From: an uncultured Agathobaculum sp.
GTDB lineage: Bacteria; Bacillota; Clostridia; Oscillospirales; Butyricicoccaceae
Direction: 5' to 3'
Assembly (NCBI GenBank): GCA_944384725.1
Contig: CALWUJ010000008.1
Span: 1 to 64,000 of the forward strand
DNA: 64,000 nt
The notes under the pieces were generated by a model. The model had not been told where the DNA came from. It searched no databases and saw nothing but the letters and a program-made list of their open reading frames with translations. A program made the translations under genes and the position numbers. Below are positions 33,532-40,521 of the stretch, one piece after another. The number at the start of each line of letters is the position of its first letter. The first letter of the stretch is position 1.

Positions 33532-34692
33532 ATGACTACGGTTTATATCATTCGCCACGCCGAGGCCGAGGGCAACGTTTACCGTCGCTGCCACGGACAG
33601 TATAACAGCCTGCTCACGCCCCGCGCGTATCAGCAGCTGCCGTATCTGGCCAAGCGGTTCGAAAACGTACCGCTGGACGCGGTCTATGCATCCGACCTGT
33701 TCCGCGCACGCACGACGGCGAAAGCCGTTGCCGCGCCGCATGGATTAAACGTCGAAATCCGTCCGGTGCTGCGTGAGATCGACATGGGCGACTGGGAAGA
33801 TGTCCCGGTGGCGGAGCTGACACGCGTCTGGCCGGAGGAATACGCTGCTTGGCGCGCGCGCCCGTGGGAAGCGGTGGCGCCGCACGGCGAGAACGCCATA
33901 CAGGCCGGCCGACGCATGCTGGACGGTGTGCGCCGCTTGGTCGCGGAGAACGAGGGCAAGACGATCGCCGTTGTAACGCATGGTACGGCCATCCGCGGTG
34001 CGCTGACCATCGCGCATGGTCTTGCGCCCGAGCAGATTGTTGAGATCGGCTGGGGCGACAACACCTGCGTGGCCAAATTTGAGTTTGACGGCCCGGACAA
34101 GATCGAAGTCGTGTACGAAAACGACGCGTCACATCTGCCGCAGGAGCTGTCTACCTTTGCGTCCATCGGCTGGACGGATAACAAGAGCGTGCCGACTTCG
34201 ACGCAAATCTGGTTCCGCCGCGCCGACCCGATGGACGAGAGTGATGCGGATAAAATCGTTTCGTACATGCGTGAGCTGCACCGGAATGCTTACGGCACGG
34301 ATGCAGGGTTAGATCCCGCCGCGCTGCTGGCGGATGTTGAGCGGGCGCAGCGCGTCAGCCCGCGCTCCTGCTGCTTTGGCTGCTTGGAGGATGGCACGCC
34401 CGTGGCGCTTGTCTATCTCAAAACGTGGTATGACGACGAGCCGGGCGTGGGACTGATCGGCGGCTTCTGTATCGACGAGGCCTACCGCGGCCATGACCTG
34501 AGCGGGCAGATTTTGGGTCAGGCCATCAGCGTGTACCGCATGCTTGGCAAGGATTACTTATGCGCGCATGTCGCATCCGAAAACGCGCGTGCGCAGGGCT
34601 TTTATCATAAATTCGCGTTTGAGCAGCGTGGCGAATATCGGGACGAAAACGGCTTGCATTATCGCATGTTCAAGCGGATTTGCATTGACTAA
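33532..34692 (+). CDS. Histidine phosphatase-GNAT acetyltransferase fusion
   Basis: A 386-residue protein with two domains. Residues 1-200 are a histidine-phosphatase (phosphoglycerate mutase-like) domain with the catalytic RHA at R8-H9-A10 and second histidine H150 in VVTHGTAIRG. Residues about 225-386 are a GNAT N-acetyltransferase domain (IDEAYRGHDLSGQILG, then ENARAQGFYHKFAF). Neither substrate can be named. No stop or frameshift separates the halves. The ATG is 4 nt after pyrD with GGAGG upstream, so it is probably expressed with pyrKD, though a pyrimidine role is only a guess. Confidence 0.85.
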   Translation: MTTVYIIRHAEAEGNVYRRCHGQYNSLLTPRAYQQLPYLAKRFENVPLDAVYASDLFRARTTAKAVAAPHGLNVEIRPVLREIDMGDWEDVPVAELTRVWPEEYAAWRARPWEAVAPHGENAIQAGRRMLDGVRRLVAENEGKTIAVVTHGTAIRGALTIAHGLAPEQIVEIGWGDNTCVAKFEFDGPDKIEVVYENDASHLPQELSTFASIGWTDNKSVPTSTQIWFRRADPMDESDADKIVSYMRELHRNAYGTDAGLDPAALLADVERAQRVSPRSCCFGCLEDGTPVALVYLKTWYDDEPGVGLIGGFCIDEAYRGHDLSGQILGQAISVYRMLGKDYLCAHVASENARAQGFYHKFAFEQRGEYRDENGLHYRMFKRICID

Positions 34693-34702
34693 ACGCACTT
34701 TG

Positions 34703-34735
34703 GAAGGGCATTCTACCGTTGGTAGAGCGCCCTTC
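34703..34735 (+). terminator. Terminator after the phosphatase-acetyltransferase gene
   Basis: GAAGGGC (34703-34709) pairs with GCCCTTC (34729-34735); an inner CTACC/GGTAG stem is present. The T tail is short (TTCC). Confidence 0.65.
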
Positions 34736-34804
34736 TTCCGTCTGTCGGTTGCCCATGAGGGCGTTTTCTGCTATGCTGAAAGCAGGAAAAGGGAGGTGGA
34801 GCAG

Positions 34805-36073
34805 ATGGATGCAAGGAATACAGGGGCACTCATCGCTGCGCGCCGCAAGGCAATGGGGCTGACGCAGAAGCAGCTGGCCGAACGGCTGCTTGTGTCGGAT
34901 AAGGCGGTCAGTAAATGGGAGAACGGCGCAAGCTATCCCGAAGTGACGCTGCTGCCGCCGCTGGCGCAGATCCTCGGCATCACGGTTGACGAACTGCTGG
35001 CGGGTGCGGTGCGGGAACAAGAGCAATCGCAGGAAGCGGAGCAGGGAGATGCCGCCGACACGCCGGAAAAACAGGCTGCCGCGCCGTCGCTTGATGCACA
35101 TTTCGCGCCGCAGGATTATCTGGCGGATCGGCTGGGCAGCACGGACGATAAAATGCTGCTTGCAGCGGTTGTACTCATCCTCGCGTCGGCGTACTGCGGC
35201 AGGCTGATCGGACAGACCGCCGTACTGCGCGATCTGGTGATTGTGTTGATCGCCTATGTCGCGTTCCGCGTGTGGCACAACAAGCAGTGCAGTCGCTTCG
35301 CTGCGCTCGGTGTGGACGCGGCGGTCAGCCGCCGTCGTGCACGCATGACGGATATCCTGTTCGGCGTGGTGTGGCTGGTGGTTGCGCTGGCCGTTTGGCC
35401 GGGACAGCAGATCAAATGGCTGCTGTATGAGTATGAACTTGCAAAAATCGTCCGTTACCGTGTAATGCTCGATGCAATCAACATCCATATCACGAACGAA
35501 ACAGCGTGGATCGGGGTGTATGTCCTCACTTCCGTGCCGCTGTGTCTTGCGCTGATCGGCTTATTCGCGTTGGCCTACCGCCGCATGAAAGCGGAAACGC
35601 GCTTCCGACCGCTGGCGATTATACTGCCTGTGGTGCCGTGCCTCATCGGTGCGGGTGTCATTGGTTGGCAGCGCGTGCAGACCGCATTGGCAGGTATGCC
35701 GGACTATGCCGAGGCATTGTCGACGATCAATGAGCGTGAAATGCTCCGGCAGGAGATCCAAACCGCTGGGCAGAGCGCACAGATCGTCGCAGCGATTGTG
35801 CTGGCCGTGCTGTTTGTGGCGCTGCTGGTGCTGTGGCGCATGACGCATGGCCGCGTGCCGCTCGTGAGCGCGATCCTGCTCGTAGTGTACGCGATGGTCT
35901 GGCTGCCGTCCGGCGCGCTGTGGCTGGATATCGGCTATGAGGAGTTTATCAATGCGGGCGGCACCGAAGATATCACCATCCAGCTGATTGGGCTGGCGCT
36001 TCTTCTGCTGCTGACCGCGCTTTGTGCAGGCATCGCACTATTTGCAGACAGCCTGCGCCGCAAAAAAGAATAA
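34805..36073 (+). CDS. XRE-family regulator fused to membrane helices
   Basis: A 422-residue protein. Residues 1-65 are an XRE helix-turn-helix (IAARRKAMGLTQKQLAERLLVSDKAVSKWENG). A variable Glu/Ala-rich linker follows, then a multi-helix membrane region with about seven hydrophobic stretches. This layout is common in Clostridia, where such proteins are thought to sense the membrane or a small molecule, but targets are unknown. The start MDARNTGAL has GGGAGG upstream; long upstream in-frame sequence reads through the previous terminator and is rejected. Confidence 0.8.
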   Translation: MDARNTGALIAARRKAMGLTQKQLAERLLVSDKAVSKWENGASYPEVTLLPPLAQILGITVDELLAGAVREQEQSQEAEQGDAADTPEKQAAAPSLDAHFAPQDYLADRLGSTDDKMLLAAVVLILASAYCGRLIGQTAVLRDLVIVLIAYVAFRVWHNKQCSRFAALGVDAAVSRRRARMTDILFGVVWLVVALAVWPGQQIKWLLYEYELAKIVRYRVMLDAINIHITNETAWIGVYVLTSVPLCLALIGLFALAYRRMKAETRFRPLAIILPVVPCLIGAGVIGWQRVQTALAGMPDYAEALSTINEREMLRQEIQTAGQSAQIVAAIVLAVLFVALLVLWRMTHGRVPLVSAILLVVYAMVWLPSGALWLDIGYEEFINAGGTEDITIQLIGLALLLLLTALCAGIALFADSLRRKKE

Positions 36074-36124: not shown

Positions 36125-38959
36125 TTAGAAAATGGCAACCGTCGTGCCGACCGGGATGTTGTTGTAAATCCACTTGATGTCGTTCTTATACATGCGCACG
36201 CAGCCGTGCGAAACGGGATAGCCCGCGCTGAAGTCATATTCGGTGTCCGTGCCCGGATAGCACAGGCGAGAGTGGAACGCATAGCCCGTGCCGGGGTAGA
36301 AGCCAACGACCGGACGCACGGTGTAGGTGCTGGTCGTCCAGCCGCCCGCGGACTTGTAGGAAACCGTGGTCAGGCCGGTGGGCGTCGGCGTGGAGGCTGC
36401 GCCGGTGCCGACGAGGAAAGATTTGATCAGCTTCCAATTGCCCTTGGAGCCTTGGAACACGTTGACATGCTGGTAAGCACGGTTGATCCAGACAAGGTAC
36501 TGGGTCTTGCTCGAATAGCCCTTGGCATTGACCCAGACTTCCTTTTCATAGGGCTTGTAGTCGTTGTTGACCGCATAAGACGTGGTGTAATTGCCGCGAT
36601 AGGTCGAGGAGACCAGATTCAGCACGCGGTTTACATCGCGCTGATAGTACCACTCGTCCGAGTAATTCTCGATCGGTACAGTCTTTTCGACATACCGCTC
36701 TTCGATTTCACCGGTCGAGGGGTTTTCATAGGTCAGCTTAAAGCCCATGGTCACGCTGGTGTCCATGTCCTTGGTGAAGGTGAAAGTGGTGGTGATGCGG
36801 GAAACAGCATCCGCAGTCAGCTCGAAGCTGTCATTGCGATAATTCGCCATCGGCTTGCCGTTTTTGTACCACTGTGCGGAGCAGATCTTGGGTTCGGTCA
36901 CACCCTGGAACGTGACCTGCGTCACCAGCGAACCGCCCGCCTTGACCTTGTCCGGTACGCCCATCGAAAGCGTCACGCCGGTAAGACCGGGGTCAATGTT
37001 TTCGATCATGGAATCCGCTTGGATAGATACTGTGCAATTGACCGCACGGATATCGACCGTGGCAGCTTTGCCATTGCCGTCCACCGTCGTGCCGACGCCT
37101 GCCACCAGTAGGTTATCCACCGTACCATTCAGCGTCAGCTTGTTGTTTTTCGCACCGCCATTGATGGCAACCGAACCGATCGAGCCGTCCGCCATGATGG
37201 TGTTGTTGCTGCCGATGATGGTGACCGTATCCGCCTGCAACTCATACAGGTTGATCGTGCGGCCGGAAGCGGTGATTTCGATATTGCTGGCATGACCGGA
37301 ATAGTTGACTGTGCTGCCCTTGCCGGCGATGACCAGCGTGCTGGTCGAGGAATCTTCCGACAGGCCCACGTCTGCCGTGCCTGCAGGGTCGATCGCGAGA
37401 GTAGAGAGGTAAGAGCCGTTCTGCACGTTCAGCTTGGCGTTTTCCGCGCCCTTGAGTACCACACGGTCGTGTGCAGTGACCGCGTCCAGCGTGGTGTTCT
37501 GCGCGGCAGTGGCGAAAATCAGGTCACCGTTCAGCTCCGTATTGGATACCGTGTATTCCGGATAAGCGAGAATGCTGTGACCGGTGAGCGGCGCAGTCGT
37601 TTCAGTGTCCGTCCCAGCGTCCGCTTCAGTATTTTCAGCAGTAGATTCTTCTGTGTCGGTTTCCGCGCTTTCCTCAGTCTCCGCGGCGGTTTCCGCGTCT
37701 GCGGTTTCTTCCTGCGGAGCAAGGATCTGATTCGCAACGCGGGTAATCATGGTGACAAATTGCGCGCGTGTCAGCGTAGCCTGCGGTGCAAGAGTGGTAT
37801 CGGTCACGCCGTTGATCACGCCCGCCGATACCAGCGCTGCCGCCGCCTGCTGCTGTGCTGCGGTCATCGAGCTGATGTCGGTGAAAGCACTGAGTTCATC
37901 CGCACCGGATTCCGCACGGTCAAAGACGAATGCGCGGGCGAGCAGCTCGAATGCCTCCGCACGGGTGGCAGCGGCATCAAAGTTACGGCTGTCGTTTGCA
38001 TCGATCAGACCGAGGTGAATGGCTTTGCCCAGGTCGGCAGCGTACCATGCATTGGAGGGCGTGTTGCTCAGGCCGCTTGTGTCGTCCACAACGTTGGCGC
38101 CGAGCGCGCGGTTAAGCATAATGATGGCTTCCGAGCGCTTGACCGGGTTATCCGGCAGCATTTTGCCATCCGTACCCTTGAGCAGACCCATATTAGCCGC
38201 GGTGTTCAGTGCGTTTTCCGCCCAGTGGCCCACAATGTCCGGGAAAGCGGGCTCGACAGGCTGCTCCGGTTCTTCGGGCTGTTCGGGCTGGGTCTCGCCG
38301 GTCAGCGTCAGCGTAACGGGCAGCGTGCCCGCCATGATGCGTGCAACGTACAGCTTGGCAGCATTGAGGTCAAAACCGCCGGTAAGGTTCAGCACCGTAT
38401 TGTCTGCGTCATAGGACACCGTTTCGCCAACGGCTTCACCATCCAGTGTGACGGACAGTGCATCGTCCTCACCGAGCGCAGCAAGCGCCGTCTGCGCGTC
38501 GCTTGTCGGGGTGAGGGATATGTAGACCGGAGCGCCGTCCGCTTCAGCCGGCTGCTCCACCTCTGCAGACAGCACATCGGCGCTCGTCAGCGCGATCTGT
38601 CCATTCGCGTCCACGATGGAGAGTGCATTGGTCTGCGACAGAAAAGCCGCAACGTCGGCCGGGGCGGTGTCTGTGCCATCCGGCAGGGTGACGATGACGG
38701 TTTTGCGGTCATCCGGGAAGGTAATCTGCGCGTCCGACAACGCCAGCTGTTCCAGACGGCCCTCGAGCACGGTGCGGACCTGCTCAACCATGCCGTCCTC
38801 CATCTGGTCGGTGTCCATCTGATCCGGCAGGGTGACCGCAAAGGTCAGCGTGGTGCCGGAGGTGTTTTGTTGTTCGGCAGCTGCGTCGCTACCCGCGGCA
38901 AATGCGGTGGTCAGCAGCATGACAGCAGCCAAAAGGCCGCTGAAAAGACGTTTTTTCAA
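36125..38959 (-). CDS. Secreted L,D-transpeptidase with SecD-P1-like domain and SLH repeats
   Basis: A 944-residue exported protein. A signal peptide (1-21, cleavage after AFA) is followed by residues 36-222 resembling the extracellular P1 domain of SecD: QVRTVLEGRLEQLALSDAQI, then LSVTLDGEAVGETV, GGFDLNAAKLYVARIMAG and LPVTLTL. Three SLH repeats follow (238-288, 302-345, 358-410), then a Glu/Thr-rich linker (415-456), a beta-helix-like region (462-650), an Ig-like domain (662-760) and a C-terminal YkuD domain with catalytic C920 in SHGCVRM. It probably cross-links peptidoglycan while bound to the wall through SLH. The start is a TTG with a GGGGGA site 8 nt upstream. Confidence 0.85.
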   Translation of the reverse strand: MKKRLFSGLLAAVMLLTTAFAAGSDAAAEQQNTSGTTLTFAVTLPDQMDTDQMEDGMVEQVRTVLEGRLEQLALSDAQITFPDDRKTVIVTLPDGTDTAPADVAAFLSQTNALSIVDANGQIALTSADVLSAEVEQPAEADGAPVYISLTPTSDAQTALAALGEDDALSVTLDGEAVGETVSYDADNTVLNLTGGFDLNAAKLYVARIMAGTLPVTLTLTGETQPEQPEEPEQPVEPAFPDIVGHWAENALNTAANMGLLKGTDGKMLPDNPVKRSEAIIMLNRALGANVVDDTSGLSNTPSNAWYAADLGKAIHLGLIDANDSRNFDAAATRAEAFELLARAFVFDRAESGADELSAFTDISSMTAAQQQAAAALVSAGVINGVTDTTLAPQATLTRAQFVTMITRVANQILAPQEETADAETAAETEESAETDTEESTAENTEADAGTDTETTAPLTGHSILAYPEYTVSNTELNGDLIFATAAQNTTLDAVTAHDRVVLKGAENAKLNVQNGSYLSTLAIDPAGTADVGLSEDSSTSTLVIAGKGSTVNYSGHASNIEITASGRTINLYELQADTVTIIGSNNTIMADGSIGSVAINGGAKNNKLTLNGTVDNLLVAGVGTTVDGNGKAATVDIRAVNCTVSIQADSMIENIDPGLTGVTLSMGVPDKVKAGGSLVTQVTFQGVTEPKICSAQWYKNGKPMANYRNDSFELTADAVSRITTTFTFTKDMDTSVTMGFKLTYENPSTGEIEERYVEKTVPIENYSDEWYYQRDVNRVLNLVSSTYRGNYTTSYAVNNDYKPYEKEVWVNAKGYSSKTQYLVWINRAYQHVNVFQGSKGNWKLIKSFLVGTGAASTPTPTGLTTVSYKSAGGWTTSTYTVRPVVGFYPGTGYAFHSRLCYPGTDTEYDFSAGYPVSHGCVRMYKNDIKWIYNNIPVGTTVAIF

Positions 38960-38990
38960 GGCATAATCCCCCTTGTTCCAGAATAAGTAT

Positions 38991-39020
38991 ATTGTACGTT
39001 CGCGGGCTATGGCTTGTCAA
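38991..39020 (-). promoter_or_regulatory. Promoter of the L,D-transpeptidase gene
   Basis: Minus strand perfect TTGACA (39015-39020), an 18-nt spacer and TACAAT (38991-38996). Confidence 0.8.
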
Positions 39021-39121
39021 GCCAAAGCGCGGTTTCAGTTTCGATACAAAGCCCGCTTTCCCATGATTTCCCGCTGAGATACCAGACGCAAAAATGGGTT
39101 GTTCGGTTCCCGTTACAAAGG

Positions 39122-39150
39122 TTTACAAGCGCTTTTCTGCATGCTATACT
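39122..39150 (+). promoter_or_regulatory. Promoter of the zinc-ribbon membrane protein gene
   Basis: TTTACA (39122-39127), a 17-nt spacer and TATACT (39145-39150). Confidence 0.8.
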
Positions 39151-39195
39151 AATATAGGATTGTTATATTTGTATATGATAGAGGAGGAACCATCC

Positions 39196-40521
39196 ATGCT
39201 TTGCAAGAACTGCGGCAGGGAGCTGCCCATCGCGGGCAAATTCTGCCCATTCTGCGGCGCGGTCGTTGAGCAGGAGGGCGTCAACGATGAAACCGCTGTC
39301 TTTACCTCACTGCCCGATGAGCTGAAAGGGCCGATCGACCTTTCGGCATTTGACGCGGCGATGAAGGAAGATCATCACGGCGGCATATCCGGGGACGGCG
39401 TTACCACAGGTGATCCGTTTGCCGCGACCGACCCGCACATCCCGACGGCGGAGGAGCTGTCGTCGGTGCGCCGCACTTCGAATATGCCGCGCGCAACGCG
39501 CGTATCGGGTACATCGCGCTCGTCCGGTGCGCCGCGCACGACCTATTTTTCCGAGCCTGACCCGGATGACCAGCCGTACCGCAAGCCGTCTAAGGGGAAA
39601 AAGGGCGCGGTGATCGCGGTGGTCGTCGTGCTGATTGTTGCGCTGATTGGCGGCGGCATTTGGTTTATCATGAGCCGTCAGCCGGACGAAAACCTGACGT
39701 TGGCGGAAAAGTATCTGAACCGTGGCGACTTTGACAAGGCGCTTCAGTATTATACCGCTGCGCAGACGGAAGCCAAGGACCCGTCCTCGCTGGATACGAC
39801 CATTCAGCTGCTGGAGGACTTCCAGACCGCGCAGGCCTATGTGGATAACGGTCAGTACACCGAGGCGATCGCGCTGCTCAAGCAGCTGCAGAACCGGGTG
39901 ACCGATCCGGATTCCCCGCTGTACGGCGCCATCGAGGATTTGATCGACCAGTCGGAAACCGCACAGTCGGACAGTGAGTTCGCTTCGGATATTGAGGAAG
40001 TCAAGAGCTATCTGGCGGATAAGAAGTATGACGCAGCTGCCGGCAAGCTGGATTCGCTCGATGCGGACGATACGCTGACCGGCGATCAGAAAAAGCAGGT
40101 TTCCGAGCTGCGCGACCAGCTGACCAAAGCGCAGGAGGCTGAGCAGAAGCAGCAGGAGACCGAGCAGAAGCAGAACGAGCAGAAGCAGGATTTCAGCAGC
40201 CAGATGGATGCGCTCGAGCAGAACGATCTGCAAATTGCTTCCGCCGCCACGCAGGAAGATGAGCTGGCGCTGACGGCAAGCTCGTTTGAGGCGTGGGATA
40301 ATCTGCTGGTGCAGATGTATGATCATCTGGCAACCATCCTGAATGCAGATCAGTATGCTGCTGAGGAAGAAAGCTATAAGAAGTGGGTCGAGGAGCGTGA
40401 CTCCGGCGCGGCGAACGCGGCGAAGGAAAGTTCAGACGAGACGGCAGGTCAGCTTGCGTCTTACAGCTTTAAGCAGAGCTATACCAAGGCACGCTGCTAC
40501 AAGCTGCTCGAGCTGATGTAA
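39196..40521 (+). CDS. Zinc-ribbon membrane protein with extracellular repeat/coiled-coil region
   Basis: A 441-residue protein. The N-terminal zinc ribbon has C3-x2-C6 and C17-x2-C20 (LCKNCG ... FCPFCG). A low-complexity Ser/Arg/Pro region follows, then one membrane helix (AVIAVVVVLIVALIGGGIWFI, about 137-157). The C-terminal domain has TPR-like repeats (about 165-260) and a Gln/Glu/Lys-rich coiled coil (about 315-345). No enzyme motif is seen. Such proteins are frequent in gut Clostridia and lack an assigned role. GAGGAGG is the ribosome site; 34 upstream codons overlap the promoter and are rejected. Confidence 0.8.
   Translation: MLCKNCGRELPIAGKFCPFCGAVVEQEGVNDETAVFTSLPDELKGPIDLSAFDAAMKEDHHGGISGDGVTTGDPFAATDPHIPTAEELSSVRRTSNMPRATRVSGTSRSSGAPRTTYFSEPDPDDQPYRKPSKGKKGAVIAVVVVLIVALIGGGIWFIMSRQPDENLTLAEKYLNRGDFDKALQYYTAAQTEAKDPSSLDTTIQLLEDFQTAQAYVDNGQYTEAIALLKQLQNRVTDPDSPLYGAIEDLIDQSETAQSDSEFASDIEEVKSYLADKKYDAAAGKLDSLDADDTLTGDQKKQVSELRDQLTKAQEAEQKQQETEQKQNEQKQDFSSQMDALEQNDLQIASAATQEDELALTASSFEAWDNLLVQMYDHLATILNADQYAAEEESYKKWVEERDSGAANAAKESSDETAGQLASYSFKQSYTKARCYKLLELM

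Follow-up and report, generated by a model that had tools for sequence, protein, structure and literature searches.

Predicted SecD-type P1 domain on an SLH-bearing L,D-transpeptidase of Agathobaculum

The window analysed here is a stretch of 64,000 nucleotides from an uncultured Agathobaculum sp. (GenBank assembly GCA_944384725.1, contig CALWUJ010000008.1, positions 1 to 64,000), in which an open reading frame (ORF) of 944 amino acids with a TTG start occupies positions 36125-38959 of the minus strand. By its domain and catalytic motif, the product is predicted to be an L,D-transpeptidase making 3-3 cross-links, and between its signal peptide and its S-layer homology (SLH) region it carries what, from sequence profiles and a predicted fold, is a genuine and complete P1 domain of SecD, comprising both base and head. 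In this predicted arrangement, known domains are combined in a new architecture. By analogy with the function of the SecD P1 head, we propose, with a probability of about 0.58, that P1 serves a wall-anchored enzyme as a reused module for binding polypeptides outside the cytoplasm. The original prediction, made from the letters of the window, had singled out this ORF; it is real, but it lies on the minus strand, which corrects that account. The parts of the gene are as follows.

36125..38959, minus strand: whole gene, SecD-P1 / SLH / beta-helix / Ig-like / L,D-transpeptidase, 944 amino acids (ORF, Pfam; last 300 amino acids found in 24 of 25 genomes of the genus)
38894..38959, minus strand: predicted signal peptide, residues 1-22 (sequence; low-confidence model helix 2-16; cleavage site judged by eye)
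38300..38854, minus strand: predicted SecD P1 domain, residues ~36-220 (SecD-only profile, E 8.6e-20; hhalign, 99.9%; SecDF chain 3aqo_C, E 4.2e-9)
38609..38854, minus strand: P1 base (N-terminal half), residues ~36-117 (SecD_1st, E 0.011, below the cut-off; omega 0.21 versus the nearest relative)
38300..38608, minus strand: P1 head, residues ~118-220 (PF22599 matches in orthologs, that of G019 over the cut-off; mosaic break near residue 113)
37757..38245, minus strand: SLH region (Pfam SLH repeats at 38123-38245 and 37757-37885; middle repeat by eye only)
36995..37585, minus strand: predicted beta-helix (beta-solenoid-like), residues ~459-655 (full-length model, strand-rich 462-655; pLDDT blocks of 78-94 for 491-650)
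36665..36994, minus strand: Ig-like region, residues ~656-765 (all-beta in the model; I-set, E 0.061, below the cut-off)
36131..36499, minus strand: YkuD L,D-transpeptidase domain, residues 821-943, with C920 at 36200-36202 (Pfam YkuD, E 3.8e-18)

The claim that residues 36-222 resemble SecD P1 was borne out by sequence profiles as well as by fold. Searches with the single sequence were too weak to decide the matter (SecD_1st, PF21760, at an E-value (E) of 0.011 over residues 58-117, below the Pfam cut-off; Thermus thermophilus SecDF as the top match in the PDB at E 0.46), and profiles were used instead. The P1 stretch alone matches the SecDF of its own genome (E 3.6e-7, query positions 11-196 of 213), and a profile of eight transpeptidase P1 rows (A1) picks up the SecD proteins of the family, reaching E 5.6e-24 at best (columns 12-197 of 209); 51 of the 87 family genomes hold a match to it, SecD or transpeptidase alike. 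Conversely, a profile made from SecD only recognises the window protein at E 8.6e-20 over positions 3-194 of 199, and hhalign aligns the transpeptidase P1 with SecD at 99.9% probability (E 6.8e-34, 182 columns, 25% identity). The window protein itself stays below the Pfam cut-offs for P1, whereas its ortholog in G019 exceeds the cut-off for the head (SecDF_P1_head, PF22599; 42 bits against 27), those in G001 and G012 scoring 26.9 and 17.4 bits. At E<1e-5 the SecD-only profile matches 109 of 1294 ORFs (overlapping loci counted separately), 50 with the SecD motif, 38 fitting the transpeptidase pattern and 21 others, which by name and first 60 residues are 12 SecD proteins (L083 being divergent), four transpeptidases or pieces of them, and five stand-alone P1 proteins.

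Structure prediction also gave a P1-like fold. The model of residues 23-234 reached a predicted local distance difference test score (pLDDT) of 82.8, and its ten best PDB matches were all SecDF chains, nine with E no higher than 3e-5; the best was 3aqo_C (E 4.2e-9, TM-score 0.68 by query length), and the eleventh was AcrB, a resistance-nodulation-division (RND) protein, at E 0.026 and probability 0.21. Because the profiles, the profile-profile comparison, the fold search and the ortholog above the Pfam threshold point the same way along the full length of P1, a chance likeness between two alpha/beta proteins with no homology, which the weak single-sequence scores alone would favour, is refuted.

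The transpeptidase P1 shares with SecD P1 (PF21760 and PF22599; 3aqo, 3aqp, 5xam, 5xan, 5xap, 5yhf) the full fold and the order of base and head, and differs from it in being carried on a wall enzyme, with neither the membrane domain nor the D..GG segment. As the original prediction had stated, no SecD membrane part is present: the SecD/SecF membrane domain, PF02355, is not among the Pfam matches of the window protein up to E 1. The D..GG segment was not seen before P1 in the transpeptidase rows when the alignment was read by eye. The SecDF of the same genome is located elsewhere, on C2, and reads RLGLDLVGGSRIVYEA at the motif segment before its P1; we take GLDL.GG to be the motif of SecD at this place.

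By a match to its last 300 amino acids, the transpeptidase is present in 24 of the 25 Agathobaculum genomes, the one without a match being G010 (82% complete). P1 occurs on 21 of these 24 proteins: 19 were found with the eight-row profile, that of G012 on the same frame, and that of G002 with the SecD-only profile. The last (L120) is the most divergent, matching at E 3.3e-10 over positions 7-138 of 199, and was missed by both the eight-row profile and Pfam. Orthologs also occur in sister genera (seven in g4, three in g3), lacking P1 where they were inspected; over the 12 P1-less rows, the absence was read in the sequence for nine, and for G044, G047 and G049 it is given by the lack of a profile match at that place. 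The enzymes of the neighbouring genus g4 (G043-G049) have in common with the window protein the signal peptide, SLH, low-complexity linker, beta-rich part and YkuD domain (four were read), and all seven are 52-53% identical to it in the last 300 amino acids; they differ from it in having no P1 and a SAGC motif (four printed) in place of SHGC. SAGC stands in all six of the P1-less sister-genus YkuD orthologs printed (L124, L125, L126, L127, L131 and L132).

In a tree of the C-terminal part, covering 33 of the 34 matched genomes (G041 is absent, and G031 and G033 are represented by 180 amino acids only), a single branch splits the 21 P1 carriers from the 12 P1-less orthologs, with weak support (64/95; 62% in 200 bootstrap replicates). 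A single change thus accounts for the distribution, and such a count cannot tell a gain of P1 from a loss. In a tree of 78 P1 domains, 20 of the 21 P1 domains from transpeptidases group together, at 98 in the Shimodaira-Hasegawa-like approximate likelihood-ratio test (SH-aLRT), outside the clade of the genus's own SecD; the long stem (1.15) of this group joins an unresolved fork among SecD sequences, so that its source within SecD is not placed. This tree came from a quick search with long-branch warnings, and omits the SecD loci L145 (G022) and L147 (G024), which the profile used for extraction missed, and several redundant ones. The P1 of G002, added by hand, sits on a branch 4.05 long and strayed from the clade.

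A survey of domain architectures, proposed in the original prediction, found P1 outside SecD on lone proteins, a kinase and SurA-like proteins. PF22599 has matches in 134 of the 245 genomes of the order, and of these 11 outside the family were opened because of an odd frame length or two matches. Five of the 11 hold a P1 without SecD, at the following places.

L074:2522-3241, minus strand: stand-alone P1 protein, lipoprotein-like
L075:984-1787, plus strand: stand-alone P1 protein, lipoprotein-like
L076:2430-3233, minus strand: stand-alone P1 protein, lipoprotein-like
L080:1556-2335, minus strand: stand-alone P1 protein, lipoprotein-like
L081:1878-2669, minus strand: stand-alone P1 protein, membrane-anchored

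The lipoprotein-like character was judged by eye from what we presume to be a lipobox. PF22599 exceeds its cut-off in four of the five, including three of the four lipoprotein-like ones, and L074, L075 and L076 are encoded beside secD. Since L074 and L076 each pair with the SecD of their own genome on the P1 tree (SH-aLRT 95 and 94), they arose apart from the transpeptidase P1. Like the latter, the four lipoprotein-like proteins, which come from other Oscillospirales, are freed from SecD; unlike it, they have neither enzyme nor SLH. In the phylum, 268 of 299 genomes hold a match and, among the matches listed, at least five genomes hold more than one (G332, G353, G385, G467 and G591). The extra matches of G332 and G591 are, as judged by eye, second SecD proteins. 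Those of G467 and G385 lie in the following proteins.

L180:1462-3294, minus strand: Ser/Thr kinase with a C-terminal P1, in G467 (Pkinase, E 5.3e-42; SecD_1st, E 1.3e-20; P1 head, E 5e-26)
L183:104-1525, minus strand: SurA-like, lipoprotein-like protein with a C-terminal P1 head, in G385
L185:406-1803, plus strand: SurA-like, lipoprotein-like protein with a C-terminal P1 head, in G385

The P1 of the kinase probably faces outward, given the hydrophobic stretch that precedes it. As in the window protein, P1 belongs here to a multi-domain protein other than SecD, the partner being a kinase or a SurA-like protein and not a transpeptidase. Judged by frame length, one of 20 genomes in the family of G467 has the kinase fusion, and one of three has the SurA fusion. 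The survey covers genomes with an odd frame length or several matches, and single-match fusions of SecD-like length could be missed by it. A literature search over titles and the beginnings of abstracts, in which subscription journals are mostly missing, returned nothing describing P1 outside SecD or a protein combining SLH, YkuD and P1.

The two halves of P1 differ in their history. The P1 of L005 is 97% identical to that of the window over residues 54-94 and 57-60% over residues 114-209, whereas it is 57% and 85-89% identical, respectively, to that of L007. Informative sites divide 87:3 before and 20:98 after residue 112 (p 1.7e-34), and the best break, at residue 113, was equalled in none of 1000 permutations; it lies near the junction of base and head, Pfam SecD_1st ending at residue 117. 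In a scan of triples over 19 sequences (G002 and G012 left out), 86 of 2907 were significant (Bonferroni 0.01), centred on a few sequences (G018 in 27, G009 in 26, G000 in 19, G007 in 6, G020 in 5 and G006 in 3), and may stem from two or three events. As read from these alignments, P1 heads have clearly been exchanged between lineages at the base/head junction, at least once; a chimeric metagenome assembly of G009 (L005/L018) is nonetheless a conceivable source of the mosaic.

We propose the following course of events. In the Agathobaculum lineage, an L,D-transpeptidase that already had SLH would have received, most simply once, a complete SecD P1, base and head, between its signal peptide and its SLH region. 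What turns P1 into a motor in SecD, namely the membrane domain and the D..GG segment, would have been left out and the fold retained. After export, the SLH region would hold the protein on the wall, as its domains suggest, and the beta-helix and Ig stretch would space the YkuD enzyme. P1, at the mature N-terminus, would then act as a passive polypeptide-binding module, perhaps recruiting or orienting a protein partner near the cross-linker. The head of SecD P1 is described as a substrate-binding site or cavity that moves with ion flow (PMC7793623, PMC11470409) and as binding unfolded preprotein (PMC3643904). A P1 cut from the membrane cannot be driven in this manner, but it may still bind.

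Several findings weigh against this proposal. First, in G004, G005 and G023 the signal peptide is joined to SLH by a linker, with no P1 between them; as these three orthologs are devoid of P1, the enzyme does not need it. Second, P1 is the fastest-changing folded part of the protein, the mean pairwise identities being 57% for P1, 64% for the beta-helix, 77% for SLH, 79% for the Ig-like region and 96% for YkuD. Third, the ratio of nonsynonymous to synonymous rates (omega, dN/dS) of P1 lies above that of SLH (0.08-0.15) and YkuD (0.02-0.07). Fourth, SecDF is present in 17 of the 21 P1 carriers. Fifth, the three SLH repeats of the original prediction stood in part: Pfam recognised two of them, at E 3.2e-20 for the SLH region, but not the middle one, even in a search up to E 10.

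The fast change of P1, the exchange of its head as a cassette and its dispensability in three orthologs would suit a spacer or variable surface domain, in which P1 is retained only as a stable bulk at the N-terminus, its exposed head changing under pressure from phages or immunity and binding no peptide. We regard this as possible, though clearly less probable than the reuse of a binding module. In the five pairs compared, the omega of P1 stays far under 1 (0.21, 0.41, 0.47, 0.24 and 0.35; five of 28 pairs, by a simple count method, with some dS >1), and P1 is under purifying selection in these pairs. In addition, the model predicts an intact fold, and P1 recurs on the kinase and on the SurA-like proteins, where a mere spacer is less likely.

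A closer tie to export, in which a wall-held P1 beside SecYEG/SecDF takes over emerging proteins and thereby couples export to wall assembly, appears unlikely to us. The presence of SecDF in most carriers speaks for it, as do the contact of SecD P1 with the chaperone PpiD and the view that SecD P1 itself binds substrates at the translocon (PMC7793623, PMC11470409). Against it, the SecD membrane domain by which P1 could stay at the translocon is absent from the Pfam matches, and G004 and G005 have SecDF together with a P1-less enzyme. Furthermore, 20 of the 25 genomes of the genus match PF02355 with E no higher than 7.3e-53, whereas G011, G012, G019 and G021 each give a single weak match (E 3.7e-10 to 9.2e-9), in a frame 1040-1048 amino acids long, a length that suggests RND transporters, and G023 has no match. 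Those four genomes (77, 95, 97 and 83% complete) all carry P1 on the transpeptidase and, since four of the 21 carriers are thus devoid of detectable SecD/SecF, this P1 does not seem to need the Sec motor. The original prediction had offered either a link between secretion or folding and wall assembly or reuse of the fold as a binding module. Of the two, the binding module agrees better with the data; these four carriers, the three orthologs without P1 (two of them from genomes with SecDF) and the occurrence of P1 on other proteins than SecD all weaken a direct link to the motor. In the order at large, 111 of the 245 genomes have no SecDF_P1_head match, and for this reason SecDF may often have been lost or have diverged there.

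L,D-transpeptidases can attach proteins to peptidoglycan in other bacteria. On this ground one may go beyond a passive binding module and picture P1 as a portable capture module that left the Sec motor several times and presents secreted polypeptides to the transpeptidase for covalent attachment to peptidoglycan, its exchangeable heads choosing the proteins in a sortase-independent anchoring. We consider this extension improbable.

In the passages available of PMC7793623, PMC11470409 and PMC3643904, P1 figures only as the moving hand of SecD. The motor-free P1 kept under selection on a wall enzyme, and those on a kinase and SurA-like proteins elsewhere, would be natural forms in which to measure binding by the head without the membrane motor. 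Should the head indeed recruit proteins to the L,D-transpeptidase, this would point to a new control of wall assembly or of the fixing of proteins to the wall. That P1 occurs outside SecD on other proteins as well makes the transpeptidase case more interesting.

The other domains of the protein largely agree with the original prediction. The YkuD domain with C920 is supported by Pfam (PF03734), and residues S917-R922 (SHGCVR, including C920), invariant in eight sequences, fit the catalytic S/T-HGC pattern. The full-length model is poor (pLDDT 53.5; predicted template modelling score, pTM, 0.36) and was used for the beta-helix and rough secondary structure only; it supports the beta-helix-like stretch, in which a DUF3060 match (E 0.017) lies below the Pfam cut-off. 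The Ig-like domain fared less well, being all-beta in the model but resembling I-set only weakly. As to the pyruvylated wall polymer expected for SLH anchoring, PF04230 (polysaccharide pyruvyl transferase, the family of CsaB) occurs in all 25 genomes of the genus; it is a family wider than CsaB, with matches in eight of the 14 control genomes too. With 62 SLH repeat matches, the genome G000 has many SLH proteins.

A scan of named genomes yielded 12 loci, of which seven are full-length relatives, all from Agathobaculum metagenome assemblies; in the other five the match is confined to the SLH region. The TTG start and an AAGGGGG-like purine-rich stretch upstream of it are common to the window gene and all seven relatives. 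The candidate start signals of the gene are the following.

38968..38974, minus strand: ribosome-binding-like AAGGGGG before the TTG start (purine-rich stretch in the window and seven relatives)
38991..39020, minus strand: sigma-70-like promoter match TTGACA-18-TACAAT (consensus scan, 11 of 12 positions)

The putative promoter is a pattern match alone, one of three sites in the 401 bases scanned, where 0.2 would be expected. The transpeptidase gene looks monocistronic, because the gene upstream is divergent and the one downstream, a helix-turn-helix gene at 34544-36073, converges on it. The divergent upstream neighbour, at 39094-40521 on the plus strand, is a zinc-ribbon/TPR gene, and its motif stands upstream of the transpeptidase in 15 of the 16 loci checked; in L006, where it is missing, the sequence ends 282 bases ahead of the start.

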